From the NCBI RefSeq assembly GCF_030362855.1, contig NZ_JAUCBP010000001.1, positions 69,613-133,612 on the forward strand: DNA of 64,000 nt, written 5' to 3'. This DNA comes from Neoalteromonas arenosi. Its GTDB lineage: Bacteria; Pseudomonadota; Gammaproteobacteria; Enterobacterales; Alteromonadaceae. Shown here one piece after another: positions 6,678-15,326 of the stretch. A program made the translations under genes and the position numbers. Position 1 is the stretch's first letter, and each line of letters begins with the position of its first letter. The notes under the pieces were generated by a model. The model searched no databases. It saw only the letters and a list, made by a program, of their open reading frames with translations, and was not told the DNA's origin.

Positions 6678-6893
6678 CGTTATAATAATTATTTTTTAAG
6701 AAGCTTAAGCTCTAACGGCTATGTTACCTAATTTAGCGTTAGATGTGCAGTGAATAACAAAGTCGCCAACCTTGAAGTGGTTATAAATTGTTCAAACGTA
6801 AAAAAACAGTTTATATTTCAATCTAGTGTCAAGAAATGTTGGGTGGTTTGAAAACCCTAAAACTTGGCTAATTCTGCTGACAAGGAGGCTGTA

Positions 6894-7433
6894 ATGGCTG
6901 ATTCAAAGCAAAAAACTAAGAAGAATGATAGCTCAGCGCCCGATAATGAACTTGGCCAATTACGCGAAATAGTATTCGGTGCGGCTAAGCGCGACATTGA
7001 AGCGCGTATCAATGCACTTGAGGCAAGCATGCAAAAAGGCTTTACCGAACTCCAACAAAGTCAATCTGACAATGTCGCCATGCTGCAAAAGACACTGAAT
7101 GACACCGCCAATCAATTGGCCCAAAAGCTAGAAGGTGTAGACCAGAGTCATCAGCAAAAATCCGAAGAGCTCAATCAATATGTCGACCGCTTAGCTTCTG
7201 AATTAGAGATGTCCGACACCTCCAGTAAAGAAGATGCAGAGCAGTTACATGCGCGCATGGACAAGGAGGTGCGCGAGTTAACACAAAACTTCAACGACAA
7301 GTACGCAGATGCAATGGCGAAACTGGAGCAAGTCACTCAAGAGTTAACCTCGACCAAAACCGATCGCAAAACGCTGGCGAAGCTTCTTGCAACTATGGCG
7401 GTTAATCTCGAGACCGATGCGGACAACGCGTAA
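6894..7433 (+). CDS. Coiled-coil protein of GTPase/OmpA operon
   Basis: Not a named family that I recognise. 179 residues from the ATG at 6894, chosen over an upstream in-frame TTG at 6864 because AAGGAGG lies five bases before it. Highly charged, with no signal peptide or membrane segment. Residues about 30-175 have heptad-like spacing expected of a long coiled coil. The N terminus contains LGQLREIVFG at residues 20-29, matched by LAQLRAIIHG at residues 19-28 of the next protein. First gene of a tight four-gene operon (5-bp gap to the next). Probably a cytoplasmic scaffold or adaptor for the GTPase or membrane protein; this is inference. Confidence 0.85.
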   Translation: MADSKQKTKKNDSSAPDNELGQLREIVFGAAKRDIEARINALEASMQKGFTELQQSQSDNVAMLQKTLNDTANQLAQKLEGVDQSHQQKSEELNQYVDRLASELEMSDTSSKEDAEQLHARMDKEVRELTQNFNDKYADAMAKLEQVTQELTSTKTDRKTLAKLLATMAVNLETDADNA

Positions 7434-7438
7434 CAGTC

Positions 7439-9226
7439 ATGTCTGCTGCGGATAACGATCTTCCAGAATCAGAGCCGCAAGCTTCTGATCAACTGGCGCA
7501 ATTGCGGGCCATTATTCATGGTCGCGATGGTGAGCATTTAATTGCAGCTATACAACCACACACACGCAAATTGGTAGGCGATGTTTTAATACAAGCATTG
7601 CACGATAAGCAACAGTCGGGTGAAGCCATTAATCGCGTCGTTGCACCGATGGTAGAAAAAACAGTTGAGCGTTCAGTCGCTAATCACAGCGAACAGTTCA
7701 CCAGTATTCTCTACCCTTTAGTGGGTAGCTTAGTGCGCAAGGCTGTGAGTGCCTTTCTCTCGCAATTTATTGAACGCACCAATGACATTATCGAGAATGC
7801 CTTGTCACCGAAAGGTTTAAAATGGCGCTTTCAAGCGTGGCAAGCAGGGGTCAATTATTCTCAGTTCGTTGCCGCTCAAACCTATATTTATAAAGTAGAG
7901 CAATTGCTGCTTATTCACCGTGATACCGGGTTATTATTAAAATCCGTGTCAGCGGATGTCGAAGATGACAGTGATGCAGATTTGATCTCTTCAATGTTGT
8001 CGGCCATCAATGACTTCGTAGCCGATTCATTTAATCCACAAAATGCTGAACAACAATTAGGTGAAGTTAAGACGGACGACTTTACGTTGTTGATATGTCA
8101 TAGTCCTCATGCGCTGCTGGTCGCGGCGGTGACCGGTAATGTGCCAAACTCTGTGCGGGTAAATTTGCAAGCTACACTGGATGAAATCCATGCGATGTAT
8201 CGCGAAGATTTACTCGCATTTCAGGGCGATACTCTGGCGTTTGAAGTTACCGACACTACATTACGTGACTCACTTACCGCCGAAGTAAAACCTGAATATG
8301 AAAAGAAAAAACGCATACCCTGGTTTGGCTGGCTATTCTTCGTTGCCATCCTCTGTGGTATCGGCTGGTGGGCTTGGCAGCAATACGAGGATTATACGAT
8401 TGCACAGAAAGTAACCGAGCTTAACGCAGAGCCTGGCATATTGATCACCGAACTAATACAAGCCGATGATGGCTATTTTGACGTCACGATATTGCGCGAC
8501 TCAGCGAGCATCTCACTAGAGCGTTGGTTGCGCGAGCATGGATTAGCTAACGCTGATATCCGATTTAATCAGCAAGCGTTTATTTCGGTGGAGCCCACGA
8601 TTGTGGTTCGCAAGCTCAAAAACTTGCAGCAGCGCTTTCCTGAAGTCGCCATGCACGGCGCACAGCCGATAGTCCTAAGCGGTGAGCTAGGCTGGCGAAA
8701 AATGCAGGCATTTAATGCAGAACTGGCAGCGCTTCCAGGTATTCACACGATACACATTGATCGCACGGCATTGAAGTTAAGTGAAGTCAGTATCCAAGCC
8801 GCCGATCAACCGGCAATTCAACGCCAACTGTTCGAACAATTAGTCGGTGAAATTTCAAGAATTAACATTGAATTTGCTAGCGGGGCTGCACAACTAGACG
8901 ACATTGCGATTGAGAATGTTGTAGCACTGAAAAAGCTACTCGATGACGCCTTGAAAACTGCGCAATCGTTAAATTTAAGTGCTAACCTAATTATTATAGG
9001 GGCAAGTGATGCTACGGGCAGTTCGTCAGCCAATCAGCGCCTGAGTTTAGCGCGTGCCAACGCGGTAAAAACGGCTTTAATCAATCAAGGTATCAATGTC
9101 AGTCAATTATTTGCAACAGGCATAGGCGAAATCAACCTGTCAGATGACGCAGTTGCTACTCGTCGAGTGATGTTTAACTTAATGTACGCTGAAACTAGCC
9201 GCATTTCGGAGTTACAGGGAGAGTAA
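7439..9226 (+). CDS. Inner-membrane protein with periplasmic OmpA-like domain
   Basis: 595 residues without a signal peptide. Residues 1-290 are soluble and, by the positive-inside rule (EKKKR just before the helix), cytoplasmic. One membrane helix lies at about 294-313 (WFGWLFFVAILCGIGWWAW). Residues 315-470 form a periplasmic linker region, and 476-585 an OmpA-like peptidoglycan-binding domain (INIEFASGAAQLDD start, then NQRLSLARANAVKTAL). The architecture bridges cytoplasm and cell wall. It sits between the coiled-coil gene (5-bp gap, shared N-terminal motif) and the GTPase gene (1-bp overlap TAATG). Likely the envelope anchor of the module. The cytoplasmic half has no family I recognise. 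Confidence 0.9.
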   Translation: MSAADNDLPESEPQASDQLAQLRAIIHGRDGEHLIAAIQPHTRKLVGDVLIQALHDKQQSGEAINRVVAPMVEKTVERSVANHSEQFTSILYPLVGSLVRKAVSAFLSQFIERTNDIIENALSPKGLKWRFQAWQAGVNYSQFVAAQTYIYKVEQLLLIHRDTGLLLKSVSADVEDDSDADLISSMLSAINDFVADSFNPQNAEQQLGEVKTDDFTLLICHSPHALLVAAVTGNVPNSVRVNLQATLDEIHAMYREDLLAFQGDTLAFEVTDTTLRDSLTAEVKPEYEKKKRIPWFGWLFFVAILCGIGWWAWQQYEDYTIAQKVTELNAEPGILITELIQADDGYFDVTILRDSASISLERWLREHGLANADIRFNQQAFISVEPTIVVRKLKNLQQRFPEVAMHGAQPIVLSGELGWRKMQAFNAELAALPGIHTIHIDRTALKLSEVSIQAADQPAIQRQLFEQLVGEISRINIEFASGAAQLDDIAIENVVALKKLLDDALKTAQSLNLSANLIIIGASDATGSSSANQRLSLARANAVKTALINQGINVSQLFATGIGEINLSDDAVATRRVMFNLMYAETSRISELQGE

Positions 9227-9717
9227 TGATTCAAAAAAAGGTATGCATTCTTGGCGCTACGGGGGTCGGAAAAACGAGCTTAATTCGGCAGTTTGTCGAA
9301 GGCAGCTTTTCTGAAAAATACCTGACGACCATTGGCGTTAAGATTGACAAGAAACAAGTTGACGTTGACCAAACCAGTACCCAACTTTTGATCTGGGATT
9401 TGGAGGGAATCGATCGCTATTGTGGTTTTAATCCGCGATATCTTCGCGGTACCAGTGCCTTCTTCGTTGTCATGGACCAAACGAGGTCACAATCCCTGAT
9501 TGAAGGGATGGAAATCCTTCACATGGCGCGAGACCACACTGCCGTACCTGCCATCATGATCATAAATAAGTGCGATTTAGATTCGGCTTGGCATTGGGAT
9601 GCTGACAGTGTTAATCAGCGAGCGAGTGAATTTGATAATTGTTTTTATACTAGTGCGAAAACCGGTGAAAATGTCGAGCAAATGTTCACTGAAATTGCGC
9701 GACTTAGTCTTGGATAA
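9226..9717 (+). CDS. Ras/Rab-like small GTPase
   Basis: 163-residue single-domain GTPase resembling eukaryotic Rab/Ras proteins. G1 P-loop GATGVGKT (10-17); G2 threonine in YLTTIG (Thr35); G3 DLEG (58-61) after W57; G4 NKCD (114-117); G5 TSAK (142-145). All nucleotide-binding motifs are present. Two active-site positions are unusual: the residue after the G3 glycine, glutamine in Ras, is isoleucine here, and the DTAG of Rabs is DLEG. Slow intrinsic hydrolysis or dependence on a partner is a reasonable inference. There is no C-terminal cysteine lipidation site. The start overlaps the preceding stop by one base and the next gene begins 3 bp downstream, so it is translationally coupled. No MglB/roadblock gene is adjacent. 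Confidence 0.93.
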   Translation: MIQKKVCILGATGVGKTSLIRQFVEGSFSEKYLTTIGVKIDKKQVDVDQTSTQLLIWDLEGIDRYCGFNPRYLRGTSAFFVVMDQTRSQSLIEGMEILHMARDHTAVPAIMIINKCDLDSAWHWDADSVNQRASEFDNCFYTSAKTGENVEQMFTEIARLSLG

Positions 9718-9720
9718 CCC

Positions 9721-11856
9721 ATGAATTCGTCATTGTTCCAAGCCCTAGGTATTATCGATTGTGCAATCCTGCGTTACATGGGACGCAAGCATTTCGAAGT
9801 GATCTTTACCAAAGACGAATGGTTCTTTGACTTACTACCAGAAGCCACCGGGAATAGTAAGTTTGAACTTGCCGAGAACTCCGCTTTTCTGAATGACTTC
9901 TTACTCGACGCTGAAGACTTTTGGCAAAAACACAATACCGGCCAAATTCACTCTGGGATCTGGACTGAAAACACCGCTAACCGACAATTGCACCTTGAAG
10001 CGATTGCGGCCTACGCGGGTGGCGAACGGTTTATTGTTATCAACAATATGCAGCACGAGTACAAAGAACAGCAGAAGACCCTGCAAGTCGCGCGTGAACT
10101 GCTAATTAGTAACGATAAAATCCAAGCGCAACACCAATATCTCAATGACCGGTTGAGTAAGGTTCTATCTCAAAACGCAAGCTTGTTAGAATTAAACCTA
10201 CCCATTCAGCAAGCAATTGAGCATGCATCTATTGGCGTTATCATCACTGATCAGAAGTTTAAACCTATCACCTTTAACCCTGCATCATGGAGTATCTTCG
10301 AGCTTGACCCGCAAAGCGCTGATACAACACCATTGGCAATTGTCACCGATATGTTTGACGACCAGTTTCCGGAAATAGAGCGTCTGAAAGCTCACCGCTC
10401 TAGCTGGAGTGGTGACCTTTATTGGCACTATCCACCGCGTTATCACAAGTGGCTCCAATGTGAGATACACCCCGTCATGGATGAGGGATTAGGCCTTAAG
10501 CATTGGGTGATCACATTAGCAGACGTCACGCGAATTAAATACCTGTTACAAACCAACGAAGATTTAGCGTTACATGATTCATTAACAGGATTGCCCAATC
10601 GTCAGTATTTTTGGCAAACGTTAGAGCAATCAATTCGCGCAGAGGAACACTTCTTCGTGATGTATGTAGATATCGATAAATTCAAAAATATCAATGAGCT
10701 ACATGGCCATCTTACCGGTGACTCAATGCTTATTTCCGTAAGTAAACGGATTAAGAAGCGCTTGCAAAGAAGTGACTTTTTGGCGCGTATTGGCGCCGAT
10801 GAATTCGCAATTGTGATTAAACCAAGTCCCGACATAGAACTGGAGCCCGGTTCAGATATCCTCGACCGAGTCACCGATATCGCAGCAGTCTTACGAGAAG
10901 ATTCCCGCTCTCCTCACTTTACCGAGCGAGATGAACGCTGCAACTTACCTCTGCGCATTGGTATTGCTAGTTACCCCGCTGATGCATCAACGACAGAGGC
11001 GATAATGAAGGCTGCTGATCTGGCTTTACATGCAGCTAAGCTGTTCTCACAAGATCCAATCCAGTTTTACTCCTCCGATTTAAAGACTGCATCTGAAGCG
11101 CGTTTACGGCTGGAATCTCAGCTCCGCGAGGCGATCGCCAAAGAGCAACTGCAAGTTTATTTGCAACCTATATACGATTTAAGTTCAGGTCGGATCGTCA
11201 AAGCTGAAGCATTACTGCGCTGGTTCCCCACTAAGGATTCCAGTATCGGTCCTGATGTATTTATTCCGATCGCCGAGCAGACCGGGTTAATTTACCCTCT
11301 CGGTAAATGGGTGATAACCAAAGTGTGTGAATTACTCACCGTGTTTAAGCAACACAACATCAATATAAAGCTTGCTATGAACGTAAGCCCTCGCCAAGTG
11401 AGTGACCGTCATTTATTTGAATTTATTAAGTCAACTGCTGAGCGACTCGGTGTTGATGCGCATAAGTTAGAGTTAGAATTAACCGAAGGCGTATTGGTTG
11501 ATAACTACAATAAAGCACAGAAGCTGCTCAACTCGCTGCGAGAGATGGGCGTAACCATTGCAATTGACGATTTTGGTACTGGCTACAGCTCGCTGTCATA
11601 TCTAAAACATTTACCCATTGATCACCTCAAAATCGATCGTTCTTTAATCAGTGATATTGATACCAATGAGGATGATCGGGCAATCGTTTTAGCAATACTC
11701 GCTATGGCGACGCAACTGAGGTTGAAAGTCATTGCTGAAGGGGTTGAAACGATGGAGCAACAAGAGTTTCTTAAGCAGCACCGTTGCGCCTCAGCTCAGG
11801 GCTTTTATTACGCCAAGCCAATGCCATTGGAATCCTTCATAGCCTTCATGAAATAA
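9721..11856 (+). CDS. PAS-GGDEF-EAL cyclic di-GMP protein
   Basis: 711 residues, cytoplasmic. Order: a PAS-like N-terminal region (about 5-110, weak similarity by pattern), a coiled coil (112-150), a second PAS (163-275), GGDEF (280-455) and EAL (466-711). The GGDEF active site reads GADEF (358-362), and the I-site position is QRSD rather than RxxD, so cyclase activity is doubtful. The EAL domain keeps EALLRW (496-501), the NVSPRQ segment, DDFGTGYSS (616-624) and KIDRS, so phosphodiesterase activity (c-di-GMP to pGpG) is expected. Last gene of the GTPase/OmpA operon, 3 bp after the GTPase, and the likely output enzyme. Confidence 0.95.
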   Translation: MNSSLFQALGIIDCAILRYMGRKHFEVIFTKDEWFFDLLPEATGNSKFELAENSAFLNDFLLDAEDFWQKHNTGQIHSGIWTENTANRQLHLEAIAAYAGGERFIVINNMQHEYKEQQKTLQVARELLISNDKIQAQHQYLNDRLSKVLSQNASLLELNLPIQQAIEHASIGVIITDQKFKPITFNPASWSIFELDPQSADTTPLAIVTDMFDDQFPEIERLKAHRSSWSGDLYWHYPPRYHKWLQCEIHPVMDEGLGLKHWVITLADVTRIKYLLQTNEDLALHDSLTGLPNRQYFWQTLEQSIRAEEHFFVMYVDIDKFKNINELHGHLTGDSMLISVSKRIKKRLQRSDFLARIGADEFAIVIKPSPDIELEPGSDILDRVTDIAAVLREDSRSPHFTERDERCNLPLRIGIASYPADASTTEAIMKAADLALHAAKLFSQDPIQFYSSDLKTASEARLRLESQLREAIAKEQLQVYLQPIYDLSSGRIVKAEALLRWFPTKDSSIGPDVFIPIAEQTGLIYPLGKWVITKVCELLTVFKQHNINIKLAMNVSPRQVSDRHLFEFIKSTAERLGVDAHKLELELTEGVLVDNYNKAQKLLNSLREMGVTIAIDDFGTGYSSLSYLKHLPIDHLKIDRSLISDIDTNEDDRAIVLAILAMATQLRLKVIAEGVETMEQQEFLKQHRCASAQGFYYAKPMPLESFIAFMK

Positions 11857-11911: not shown

Positions 11912-12799
11912 TTATTGCGTCTCGCCGCCTTGAGAATTCAAATAGCGGAAGAAGTCGCTATTTGGCTCAACCACCAAGACGTCTTGTTTGCTATTAAAGC
12001 TGGCGCGATAAGCATCCATGCTTCTTAAAAAGCTATAAAACTCAGGATTCTTGCTGTATGCACTAGCATAAATGTTGGCAGCCAGAGCATCACCCTCACC
12101 GCGCAAACGACGCGCTTCTCGCTCTGCGGTAGCTAACATTACTTCGACCGTTGCATCGATATTAGAGCGCAAAACTTCCGCTTGCTCTTGACCTTCTGAA
12201 CGGTGTTCACGAGCAACACCCGCCCGCTCAGCGCGCATGCGTTGGAAGATAGAAGCACTGACCTCTGTTGGTAAATTAATTTGCTTCACCCGAACATCGA
12301 CGATCTCGATACCTAATTCATCAGAACTGCTTGACGCTTGTTCCATGGCTTGGTCCATTAACGCTGAACGCTCGCCCGATACGATTTGAGCAATGGTACG
12401 CGCACCGAATTCAGAACGCAGGCCATTATTCACCTTCTGCTTCAACAGGGCTTCCGCTTGGAATTTATTGCCGCCAGTAGATAAGTAATAACGCTCAAAA
12501 TCTTCGATTCGCCACTTCACATAAGAGTCGACGATCAAGTCTTTCTTCTCCGATGTTACGAAGCGATCTGGCGCATCATCAAGTGTTTGAACACGCGCAT
12601 CTAGCGGGCGAACTGTATCGATAAACGGGATCTTAAAGTGCAACCCAGGTTCAAACACTTTAGTTTCACCTGTTTGACTGTCTTTTTGAACTTTACCAAA
12701 TTGAATCACAATCGCTTTGTTGCCTTCAGAAACAACAAATAGCGAGTTAAATCCCAAGAAGATAAGTACTGCGATAATAATTAATCCAAAATTCTTCAT
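11912..12799 (-). CDS. hflC: HflC, SPFH/band-7 membrane protein
   Basis: Partner of HflK in the large periplasm-facing SPFH cage that surrounds the membrane protease FtsH and modulates its access to substrates. 295 residues: an N-terminal membrane anchor (about 4-23), then an SPFH/band-7 domain (GNKAIVIQFGKV onward) and a helical region rich in Ala/Glu/Arg (about 185-260). Slightly shorter than E. coli HflC (334). It begins two bases after the hflK stop, with AGGAGG within the end of hflK. Last gene of the mutL-to-hflC series, ended by the hairpin at 11868-11895. Confidence 0.97.
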   Translation of the reverse strand: MKNFGLIIIAVLIFLGFNSLFVVSEGNKAIVIQFGKVQKDSQTGETKVFEPGLHFKIPFIDTVRPLDARVQTLDDAPDRFVTSEKKDLIVDSYVKWRIEDFERYYLSTGGNKFQAEALLKQKVNNGLRSEFGARTIAQIVSGERSALMDQAMEQASSSSDELGIEIVDVRVKQINLPTEVSASIFQRMRAERAGVAREHRSEGQEQAEVLRSNIDATVEVMLATAEREARRLRGEGDALAANIYASAYSKNPEFYSFLRSMDAYRASFNSKQDVLVVEPNSDFFRYLNSQGGETQ

Positions 12800-12801
12800 G
12801 A

Positions 12802-13953
12802 TTAATTGCCTCCTCGGCCAAAACGGTCACCACGGGTACTTTGACGATTAGTCGTTGTCACCGGAGTGTCTGGTGTTGCAGCATTACGTAGGGTTTCAAG
12901 TGCATTGCGTGACTCATCTTGCGTTTGTTGCGTGCCTTGACGTTCTAGAATCTTATCTAATGGCAAGTACATCATGTTGCCACCCCCTTCAGAATCGATC
13001 ATCACCTTGGTGGTATTACTAAACACGCTTTCCATTGTTTCTAGGTAAATCCGCTGACGGGTGACTTGTGGTGCAGCTTCGTATTGAGGTAGTAGCTCCT
13101 CAAATCGAGCCACTTCACCTTCGGCTTGCAAGATAACCCGCTCTTTATAGGCTTGCGCTTCTTCGTTCATCCGATTGACTCGACCACGAGCACGCGGCTC
13201 TAACTCGCGCGCATACGCTTCGGCTTCACGAATGAAGCGTTGTTCGTCCTCTTGTGCAGCGATTGCGTCATCGAACGCATCTTTTACTTCTTCTGGTGGA
13301 CGTGCGTCTTTGAAGTTCATATCAATGATTTGCACGCCCATATCGTAAGGCTCAATAATGTCCTGCAACTCCTGCCAAACACGTTGACGCGTCTCTTCAC
13401 GGCCATCAGTTAATACGTCGTCCATTTTAGAGTGACCCACAACGTAACGAATCGCGCTATCTAATGCTTGGCTCAAACTCACCTCGGGCTCCACCACCGC
13501 ATATATCCAGCGGTAAGGGTCGATCACTCGAAACTGCATTTCCATCTGTACACGGACGAGGTTTTCATCTTCGGTTAGCATTGAACCCGATGACGATTGG
13601 TCGCGAATAGACTGGATGTCTACCGGAATTACCCGATCTATAAAACGTGGTGCCCAACGCAATCCAGGCTCAACCTGGGTGTAATACTCACCAAATCGCA
13701 ACACTACGCCACGCTCAGCTTCACGAATGGTGTAGAATCCGCTAACGGCCCAGATCACTACAATCAGGCCGACTACTAGCCCGATACCAGCACTGCTGAC
13801 CCCCTTGCCTGATCCGCCAGAGCCACCAGTACTCTTCGAAAACTTACCAAATAAATTCTTAAACACATCGTCAAGGTCGGGTGGACCTTGGTCGCGCCCC
13901 CCCTTGTTTTTCCAAGGGTCGTTGTTGTTACCACCCGGCTCATTCCAGGCCAT
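12802..13953 (-). CDS. hflK: HflK, SPFH/band-7 membrane protein
   Basis: Forms the HflKC complex with HflC, regulating FtsH. 383 residues: a Gly/Asn-rich cytoplasmic N terminus (WNEPGGNNNDPW, typical of HflK), one membrane helix (about 55-74), an SPFH domain, a helical Glu/Arg/Ala-rich segment (about 225-290) and a disordered Thr/Arg/Gly tail. The tail is shorter than in E. coli HflK (419). Transcribed ahead of hflC with a 2-bp gap. An 83-bp gap to hflX upstream could hold an extra promoter. Confidence 0.97.
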   Translation of the reverse strand: MAWNEPGGNNNDPWKNKGGRDQGPPDLDDVFKNLFGKFSKSTGGSGGSGKGVSSAGIGLVVGLIVVIWAVSGFYTIREAERGVVLRFGEYYTQVEPGLRWAPRFIDRVIPVDIQSIRDQSSSGSMLTEDENLVRVQMEMQFRVIDPYRWIYAVVEPEVSLSQALDSAIRYVVGHSKMDDVLTDGREETRQRVWQELQDIIEPYDMGVQIIDMNFKDARPPEEVKDAFDDAIAAQEDEQRFIREAEAYARELEPRARGRVNRMNEEAQAYKERVILQAEGEVARFEELLPQYEAAPQVTRQRIYLETMESVFSNTTKVMIDSEGGGNMMYLPLDKILERQGTQQTQDESRNALETLRNAATPDTPVTTTNRQSTRGDRFGRGGN

Positions 13954-14036
13954 AGATACACTCCGTAAACTACTGATTTAAAATTAACTACGTTTTTGCT
14001 AACAATTCAGTTTTATTTCACTGCGATTATAGTCGT

Positions 14037-15326
14037 CTAATTTGTCAAAATTAGGTCTTCCAACGCGCCTTTTTCACGTTTCAACAGACGTTGCCAGTCA
14101 GCACTTGGCATTCTTACGTCTACTACCCAGTCGCCCTGCTCGTTATATTCTTCGGCAGTTATGCAATTAAGCCCAAACAATACACCGCGTAGATGACTTG
14201 CTTGGGGTGGGATCCGTAAGCGTCGCTCAACAATAGACTGTGATAGTCTTTCAATGAGGGCTTGCTGCAATAATTCAATGCCCAAATTTTCCTGGGCTGA
14301 GATCCATACGCGGATAGGCTTGTCCATTTCATCACGATCAATACGTGGCTGCATCCCTTCCATGCGATCTATTTTGTTACAAACCATTAGCTGAGGCACT
14401 TCATCAGCATCGATTTCCTCTAACACCGCCTGTACTTGATCAGTATTTTCCTGATACTTATCATCAGCATAGTCAACCACGTGTAAAAGTAAATCGGCTT
14501 CTTGCGTTTCCTGCAAAGTCGCTTTAAACGCAGCCACTAGATCATGCGGCAAGTGGCGAATAAACCCTACTGTATCAGCGAGGATAATTGGTCCTACGTC
14601 ACTGAGTTCGAGTTTGCGTAACGTCGGATCTAAGGTTGCAAACAATTGATCCGCCGCGTAAACCGACGCTTCGGTTAAGGTATTAAATAGTGTCGATTTG
14701 CCGGCATTGGTGTAGCCGACCAGTGAAACCGTAGGTATTTCTGCGCGCTTACGCGACCGACGCCCTTGCTCACGCTGCTTAGCCACTTTTTCCAAGCGCC
14801 GCAAAATGGCCTTTATTCTGCCGCGTAACAAACGGCGGTCAGTTTCCAACTGCGTTTCACCCGGGCCGCGCAATCCAATACCGCCTTTTTGACGCTCAAG
14901 GTGAGTCCAGCCACGGATCAAGCGCGTGGATATGTGCTTCAACTGAGCCAATTCCACCTGCAACTTACCTTCGTGGGTGCGTGCGCGCTGGGCGAAAATA
15001 TCCAAAATGAGTCCAGTGCGATCAATCACTCGACATTTAAACACTTTTTCCAGATTGCGTTCTTGCGAGGGTGATAGCGCATGATTGAATATCACAACGT
15101 CAGCATTGAGGGTTCGCACGATATCGGCAATCTCGTCTGCTTTACCAGAACCTATAAATAGTTTTGCACTGGGGGCGTTGCGTGAGGTGGTCACTACATC
15201 GAGGGTGTTAACCCCTGCTGATGAAACCAACATCTCCAACTCAGAAAGGGCTTCCTTACTGGCTTCATCAGAGAATTCAACATGCACCAGTACTGCCTGC
15301 TCTCCTGATGCATAACGATCAAACAA
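14037..15326 (-). CDS. hflX: Ribosome-splitting GTPase HflX
   Basis: GTPase that binds 50S/70S ribosomes and splits stalled or heat-damaged ribosomes. 429 residues (E. coli 426). An N-terminal HflX domain and the family glycine motif GGIGLRGPGETQLE precede the G domain: G1 GYTNAGKST, G3 DTVGF, G4 NKID. A C-terminal region of about 70 residues completes the family layout. Located 17 bp downstream of hfq on the same strand, the standard order. Confidence 0.97.
   Translation of the reverse strand: MFDRYASGEQAVLVHVEFSDEASKEALSELEMLVSSAGVNTLDVVTTSRNAPSAKLFIGSGKADEIADIVRTLNADVVIFNHALSPSQERNLEKVFKCRVIDRTGLILDIFAQRARTHEGKLQVELAQLKHISTRLIRGWTHLERQKGGIGLRGPGETQLETDRRLLRGRIKAILRRLEKVAKQREQGRRSRKRAEIPTVSLVGYTNAGKSTLFNTLTEASVYAADQLFATLDPTLRKLELSDVGPIILADTVGFIRHLPHDLVAAFKATLQETQEADLLLHVVDYADDKYQENTDQVQAVLEEIDADEVPQLMVCNKIDRMEGMQPRIDRDEMDKPIRVWISAQENLGIELLQQALIERLSQSIVERRLRIPPQASHLRGVLFGLNCITAEEYNEQGDWVVDVRMPSADWQRLLKREKGALEDLILTN

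Follow-up and report, generated by a model that had tools for sequence, protein, structure and literature searches.

A four-gene operon with the parts of a Group 1 Rup system

We analysed a window of 64,000 nt from Neoalteromonas arenosi (assembly GCF_030362855.1, contig NZ_JAUCBP010000001.1, positions 69,613-133,612 of the forward strand; coordinates given here are positions in the window), in which four open reading frames (ORFs) follow one another on the + strand with gaps of 5, -1 and 3 bases (Table 1). They encode a coiled-coil protein (CC), a membrane protein that joins a predicted roadblock/longin domain to an OmpA domain (longin-OmpA protein), a Ras/Rab-like GTPase of the Rup type, and an output protein with GGDEF and EAL domains. 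In 2014 Wuichet & Sogaard-Andersen described these four parts under the name of Group 1 Rup neighbourhoods and hypothesised a complex signalling system (PMC4316618; what we say of this and the other cited papers is limited to excerpts of them). We consider the operon to be almost certainly a member of this kind, and an undescribed system is ruled out by that description, although a first-pass annotation made from the window's sequence had known of no described system with this exact set.

The first-pass annotation had the strand, order and gaps of the four genes as the ORF list has them, and its descriptions of the individual proteins were largely sound. The first gene, which it called a cytoplasmic coiled-coil protein, has no clear transmembrane segment, and its Pfam scan gave solely below-cut-off matches, mostly to helical families, the coiled coil being judged from these and from the sequence; the ORF list starts it at a TTG at 6864 (189 aa), while the ATG at 6894 gives 179 aa. 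In the second, the top hydrophobic segment is residues 293-311, therefore about 290 residues lie ahead of it, which agrees with a single-pass protein that has a cytoplasmic half of this size and an OmpA domain. The third matches Pfam Ras (E 9e-32), and its closest solved relatives are Rabs, with Rab22A as best PDB match (E 1.3e-21). For the fourth, described as PAS-GGDEF-EAL, Pfam finds GGDEF (E 1e-35) and EAL (E 2e-71), plus a PAS_9 match too weak to pass the cut-off; structure prediction alone shows another PAS-like fold at the N-terminus, which had been overlooked. A promoter and terminator scan of the sequence gave sites no more numerous than in shuffles.

By 2014 no Rup member or Rup system interaction had been experimentally characterised according to the excerpts, and one Nostoc member had been shown to be transcribed (PMC4316618). 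Other papers naming Rup merely cite the classification in the parts seen. Among the matches listed from the open-licence literature in PubMed Central (PMC), there is no experimental study of the set, and so no experimentally described role of the kind that the first-pass annotation had named as evidence against its proposal, nor any link of a longin domain to an OmpA protein, such absence being no proof. To our knowledge, the Group 1 Rup set has remained without experimental test since the 2014 prediction.

Table 1. Genes, domains and motifs of the operon in window coordinates.
Feature	Position	Strand	Basis or remark
Coiled-coil protein (CC), gene 1	6894..7433	+	179 aa from ATG; no clear transmembrane segment
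CC N-terminal box LGQLREIVFG	6951..6980	+	resembles the box of the OmpA protein
CC C-terminal conserved motif KTDRKTLAKLL	7356..7388	+	alignments; weaker in L019 and L020
Longin-transmembrane-OmpA protein, gene 2	7439..9226	+	595 aa; Pfam, AlphaFold2, Foldseek, VIA-align, hydropathy
OmpA protein N-terminal box LAQLRAIIHG	7493..7522	+	resembles the CC box
Predicted roadblock/longin domain, residues 150-283	7886..8287	+	AlphaFold2, Foldseek, VIA-align, hhalign with controls
Transmembrane segment, residues 293-311	8315..8371	+	Kyte-Doolittle mean 1.66
Periplasmic OmpA peptidoglycan-binding domain, residues 479-569	8873..9145	+	Pfam OmpA E 4e-11
Rup (Ras/Rab-like) GTPase, gene 3	9226..9717	+	163 aa; Pfam, PDB match, alignment
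G1 P-loop GATGVGKT	9253..9276	+	alignment
G3 DLEGI, isoleucine at the Ras Gln61 position	9397..9411	+	Q absent in 62/62 Rup sequences
Output protein PAS-PAS-GGDEF-EAL, gene 4	9721..11856	+	711 aa; Pfam and structure prediction
N-terminal PAS-like domain, residues 1-110	9721..10050	+	structure prediction alone
Gln122 codon, helix after PAS-like core	10084..10086	+	Q in 58/58 aligned outputs
GGDEF domain, degenerate motif GADEF	10567..11040	+	Pfam, motif
EAL phosphodiesterase domain, EAL and DDFGTG motifs intact	11119..11820	+	Pfam, motif

Conservation of the gene set across genomes

A scan of the genome collection for the GTPase turned up 17 loci, 16 of which were used (L021, at 25% identity, was dropped). 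Of these 16, 13 have the complete set of four proteins in an unchanged order (gene 4 of L013 is cut by the contig end), so the genes are not rarely adjacent, and the conserved set that the first-pass annotation had proposed to look for was found. The remaining loci are L018, which is cut by a contig end, L019, where the set comes with a different output, and L020, where its order differs (L020:6995-10123: Rup, LytTR-type output, coiled-coil, longin). Profile hits in L018-L020 are by construction, because the CC profile includes L019 and L020, and the output profile includes all three.

A search independent of the GTPase, in which the OmpA protein's cytoplasmic half was the query, found matches in 30/369 genomes of the class, 46/299 of the phylum and 13/296 of the phylum to which L020, a Cyclobacteriaceae record, belongs. 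We looked at 53 neighbourhoods, comprising 28 of the 30 class positives, 12 hand-picked from the 46 in the phylum, and 13 matches in 12 genomes of the L020 phylum. There is a CC-profile match upstream of the OmpA gene in 48 of these (gap -47 to 212 bases), and a Rup gene is found immediately downstream in 42 (truncated in one by the contig end) or divergently within 1.8 kb in 4. Gene order persists in other families, beyond the class and in a different phylum, with varying outputs. Three loci of the L020 phylum (L124, L126, L132) are divergent half-operons, with CC and longin-OmpA on one strand and Rup and output on the other; in L131, of the same phylum, longin-OmpA stands alone on its strand, opposite Rup and output.

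Genome-wide, Rup matches of at least 140 bits occur in 27 of the 369 class genomes, and 26 of these 27 have a longin-OmpA gene, versus 4 of the 342 others (Fisher p 1.3e-34, a value that overstates independence, given the relatedness of the genomes). In three of the four exceptions a weaker Rup (82-94 bits) is adjacent. A short intergenic distance is by itself no proof of interaction, and the four genes could in principle be co-transcribed neighbours with no joint function, but the gene order kept across families and phyla while outputs change, the co-occurrence in 26/27 genomes, and the divergent loci L124, L126 and L132, where CC stays paired with OmpA and Rup with output, reduce the chance of this to almost nothing. 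Unrelated co-transcription was accordingly dropped as a candidate, on the neighbourhood conservation and genome-wide co-occurrence. We regard the identity and conservation of the operon as well supported.

We also noted three coiled-coil and longin-OmpA pairs (L105, L080, L083) that have no Rup nearby.

A glutamine missing from Rup and conserved in the outputs

The window Rup retains the Ras-type G1-G5 motifs apart from the glutamine of G3, which is missing throughout our Rup alignment (Table 1). Its G3 is not MglA-type, for which TVPGQ or GTPGQ is given in the excerpts of PMC4316618. In the same source, Group 1 Rup proteins are described as lacking this glutamine, and it is suggested that one comes in trans. 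The window protein also has no C-terminal tail for lipidation, and a cysteine is found among the last six residues in just 2/62 Rup sequences, and a lipid-anchored GTPase was dropped as a candidate on these grounds. In its own genome (3.7 Mb) there are four Ras-profile matches, the three besides gene 3 being weak ones within ORFs of 464-877 aa. Weaker Rup-profile matches of 59-100 bits were seen in G328 (three places), G188 (two), G276, G261 and G151; these are single ORFs of 300-349 aa with a Ras-like GTPase plus an extension, in genomes that have no longin-OmpA match.

The outputs in Rup operons are exchangeable: histidine kinase, GGDEF-EAL, HD, nucleotide cyclase, sigma-54 activator and LytTR types occur. 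We aligned 60 downstream genes, the window's and 59 others (L013 was left out because of its contig-end cut, and nine loci had no Rup or downstream gene by the rule used), and Pfam found HisKA in 25, HATPase_c in 25, GGDEF in 13, EAL in 13, HD in 8, nucleotide cyclase in 7, sigma-54 activator in 3 and LytTR in 1. These types sum to 57 if none is shared, and a rough motif check showed no overlap. Adding L088, a short ORF with the N-domain, gives 58 outputs; L101 and L102 are short ORFs that have no output domains and were excluded.

Across the 60 rows and six output types, the only columns that reach 59 are the start methionine (60), Gln122 of the window protein (59) and one glycine of the catalytic part (59). 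The glutamine of L102 is an alignment artefact and L101 is not an output, so among real outputs the count is 58/58. Gln122 sits in a long predicted helix (residues 111-164) after the PAS-like core, and many outputs have R or N three residues past it and E or D four past. The output profile matches just part of the outputs, which means that many histidine kinases are matched through the MAFFT alignment. We infer that Gln122 is the invariant glutamine of the 2014 logo. The missing and the conserved glutamine are both well supported, and the loss of one from 62/62 Rup proteins together with the retention of the other in 58/58 outputs supports the proposal of 2014 that this residue comes from the output (PMC4316618), now placed in the helix after the PAS-like domain.

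Whether Gln122 then works in trans in GTP hydrolysis seems to us evenly balanced. Another explanation is that it is structural, serving signal transmission at the junction of PAS-like domain and helix in an output dimer, with no relation to GTP hydrolysis, in which case the outputs would be simple effectors or not direct partners of Rup. Conserved junction motifs are common in PAS proteins, and the predicted position of the residue in the helix after the PAS-like core suits this explanation, but a purely local role sits less well with a column conserved, with start methionine and one glycine, across six output types whose operons encode GTPases lacking Gln61, and we think it rather unlikely.

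In all 13 intact GGDEF-EAL outputs the GGDEF motif reads GADEF, GGNEF or GSNEF, while EAL and DDFGTG are kept; the degenerate GGDEF and the intact EAL are well supported, so the output of this lineage is most likely a phosphodiesterase, and a bifunctional cyclase/phosphodiesterase was dropped as a candidate on the degenerate motif in 13/13. Judged from its motifs, the gene 4 product is probably a phosphodiesterase of cyclic di-GMP (c-di-GMP), and on balance we expect the net effect here to be c-di-GMP breakdown.

In a Ghiorsea Rup operon (L018:1223-2254) the output resembles a class III nucleotide cyclase, and the motif is seen again in L107 and L108, which belong to a phylum family (f220) in which 29 genomes carry a longin-OmpA gene.

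A predicted roadblock/longin domain in the OmpA protein

Roadblock/longin is the GTPase-platform fold of MglB, Ragulator and Mon1-Ccz1, and structure prediction and comparison suggest that residues 150-283 of the OmpA protein very probably adopt it. The predicted fold is beta-beta-alpha-beta-beta-beta-alpha (AlphaFold2, Foldseek, VIA-align), MglB and longin-type domains are among its structural matches (VIA-align), and block means of the predicted local distance difference test (pLDDT) are 71-90 at residues 151-170 and 211-280. The first-pass annotation had stated that no roadblock partner is present, which is probably wrong given this domain within the OmpA protein.

Mean conservation is 2.34 bits in the first strand, 2.33 bits in helix 177-197, which takes the alpha2 position, and 2.27 bits in residues 121-139, with other elements scoring lower. 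In MglA-MglB the beta2 strand of the GTPase contacts the alpha2 helices of the roadblock monomers (PMC6785124), and GTPases are reported to sit on roadblock/longin dimers in an orientation conserved from prokaryotes to eukaryotes (PMC10933270). The Rup stretch after G2 (KIDKK in the window) is well but not strictly kept (K39 51/62, D41 47/62, K43 51/62). The conservation of the helix and of this stretch fits docking of Rup on a longin dimer, a fit only and no proof, and we think it reasonably likely that the longin domain binds and regulates Rup.

It could instead be a wall-anchored scaffold or effector only, to which Rup-GTP binds so that the complex is localised, with exchange and hydrolysis being intrinsic or due to proteins from outside the operon. 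Ragulator is a scaffold for Rag GTPases (PMC5680233), a longin role in exchange or hydrolysis is itself a proposal, and Rup keeps its other G motifs. We nevertheless find this unlikely, since the absence of Gln61 from every Rup and the glutamine kept in every output point to a regulator inside the operon, and Pfam Robl_LC7 has no match in the genome itself.

Membrane segment, probable wall anchor and shared N-terminal box

The window OmpA domain aligns with Omp38 (3td3), including the positions of the Asp and Arg that bind diaminopimelate. We aligned 62 of 69 full-length partner proteins, leaving out seven (near copies, one cut, and L020), and OmpA was found in 44 of the 62. A hydrophobic segment after the longin domain passes the threshold of 1.5 in 58/62, three more score 1.28-1.48, and L133 has none. 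The longin protein of L020 is without an OmpA match; the gene that follows it encodes a PG_binding_1 protein (E 1e-7), so another domain may keep up wall binding there. The wall could well be the source of the signal, at somewhat less than an even chance in our judgement; equally, it could be a positional anchor. The longin-OmpA protein at L017:5028-7004 has a duplicated periplasmic segment (PGIVLL...RDPLA repeat) between the transmembrane segment and OmpA.

A box of approximately LxxLRxILFG opens both the CC and the OmpA proteins. The pattern, written after the sequences were seen, is present in 60/64 CC proteins, 37/64 OmpA proteins and both in 35/64, compared with 0.7-0.8% of shuffled ends. 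Detection of distant CC proteins may depend on this box, whereas the OmpA proteins were detected with a 291-position profile. The simplest reading of these sequences is that the box provides a common docking site for both proteins.

A possible route from the cell wall to the output

The relay from envelope protein through GTPase to c-di-GMP enzyme proposed by the first-pass annotation is still the best reading, as one that we infer in its binding events, its exchange and hydrolysis roles and the nature of its wall signal. The longin-OmpA protein would cross the inner membrane, with its OmpA domain outside expected to grip peptidoglycan and its longin domain inside forming, as a dimer, a platform on which Rup docks and its nucleotide state is controlled, modelled on MglB for MglA and on the longin guanine nucleotide exchange factors (GEFs) for Rabs. 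The CC protein, sharing the N-terminal box, probably either docks at that site as well or brings the complex together. The output would sense Rup-GTP through its N-terminal PAS-like domain, and Gln122 may stand in for the missing glutamine of Rup, making the output both effector and GTPase-activating protein (GAP). The signalling helix would link hydrolysis to the EAL phosphodiesterase, and c-di-GMP would be lowered. As a whole, a Group 1 Rup operon in which a wall-anchored longin platform switches Rup and the output is effector and GAP seems to us about as probable as its opposite.

Several results weigh against this model. The AlphaFold2 model of the longin domain is shallow (15 sequences; mean pLDDT 59.9), with just 49-61 in the key helix 177-197 and 34-55 in the first 120 residues. 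The hhalign comparison with the family model gives E 1.3e-4 at a probability of 53%, falling to 10% with the full-length near-set alignment (among controls the Robl profile has its highest value, 17.2, with the profile of the GTPase). Searching PDB sequences with a profile of the longin-OmpA alignment produced no significant hit, an Asgard roadblock protein (E 0.35) ranking behind a de novo protein and RIB38. Pfam scans of 69 single domain members gave scattered weak matches; among the best 25 of the 154 families at E<=1, no family is shared by more than 4/69 members, and Robl_LC7 is absent. No Rup is nearby in 7/53 neighbourhoods (one, L074, at a contig end); Rup lies elsewhere in the genome for G413 (L074), G429 and, in the L020 phylum, G898, G780 and G801, and none was found at E<=1e-8 in G323 and G541. 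The 140-bit cut was picked after the scores were seen, and at E<=1e-15 eight of 37 Rup-positive genomes have no longin-OmpA match (29/37 have one). A conserved glutamine in a signalling helix, finally, need not reach the GTPase site.

A broader and more tentative idea, which we hold to be possible rather than probable, is that the operon encodes a bacterial, wall-anchored counterpart of the Rab-longin GEF pair, in which a trans-envelope longin protein senses peptidoglycan, switches a Rab-like GTPase and serves at least six output types, each donating the missing glutamine as its own GAP. If true, the roadblock/longin partnership would belong to both the MglA and the Rup branch of the Ras-like GTPases and would not mark MglA alone, and the domain would tie Rup systems to the regulators of eukaryotic Rabs and bacterial MglA. 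A list of neighbours would become a testable machine with a named domain, residue and enzyme, and a G protein would connect the cell wall with c-di-GMP, cyclic nucleotides or kinases.

Comparison with known GTPase systems

With the Group 1 Rup neighbourhoods in the excerpts of PMC4316618, the window shares the four parts, the G3 that lacks glutamine, an invariant glutamine in the N-terminal region of the output, OmpA after a transmembrane helix, and GGDEF/EAL or histidine-kinase outputs. The OmpA protein's cytoplasmic domain, to which no function is assigned there, is a predicted roadblock/longin domain here. Our analysis adds HD, nucleotide cyclase, sigma-54 activator and LytTR outputs (table S2 of the paper may list some of them) and the predicted PAS-like fold in the N-terminal region of the output.

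Like the MglA-MglB polarity module of Myxococcus and Thermus, the operon would pair a Ras-like GTPase with a roadblock-fold partner, MglB being among the structural matches. It differs in that the GTPase is Rup-type (DxxG, no Gln) and the platform is fused to a transmembrane segment and wall-binding domain, in a genome where Robl_LC7 is not detected. The eukaryotic longin Rab GEFs (Mon1-Ccz1, Fuzzy-Inturned, TRAPP) likewise combine longin-type domains with a Rab-like GTPase (Rab22A being the best PDB match here), but the window GTPase has no lipidation tail and its output is a bacterial second-messenger enzyme. The actinobacterial conservon CvnA-D likewise combines a GTPase, a roadblock protein and a signalling enzyme with one more protein in an operon; in contrast, its GTPase is MglA-type, its membrane protein is a histidine kinase, and no wall anchor is described in the excerpts (PMC4316618).

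Facing the operon on the - strand (11912-15326) are genes that by eye look like hflC, hflK and hflX.
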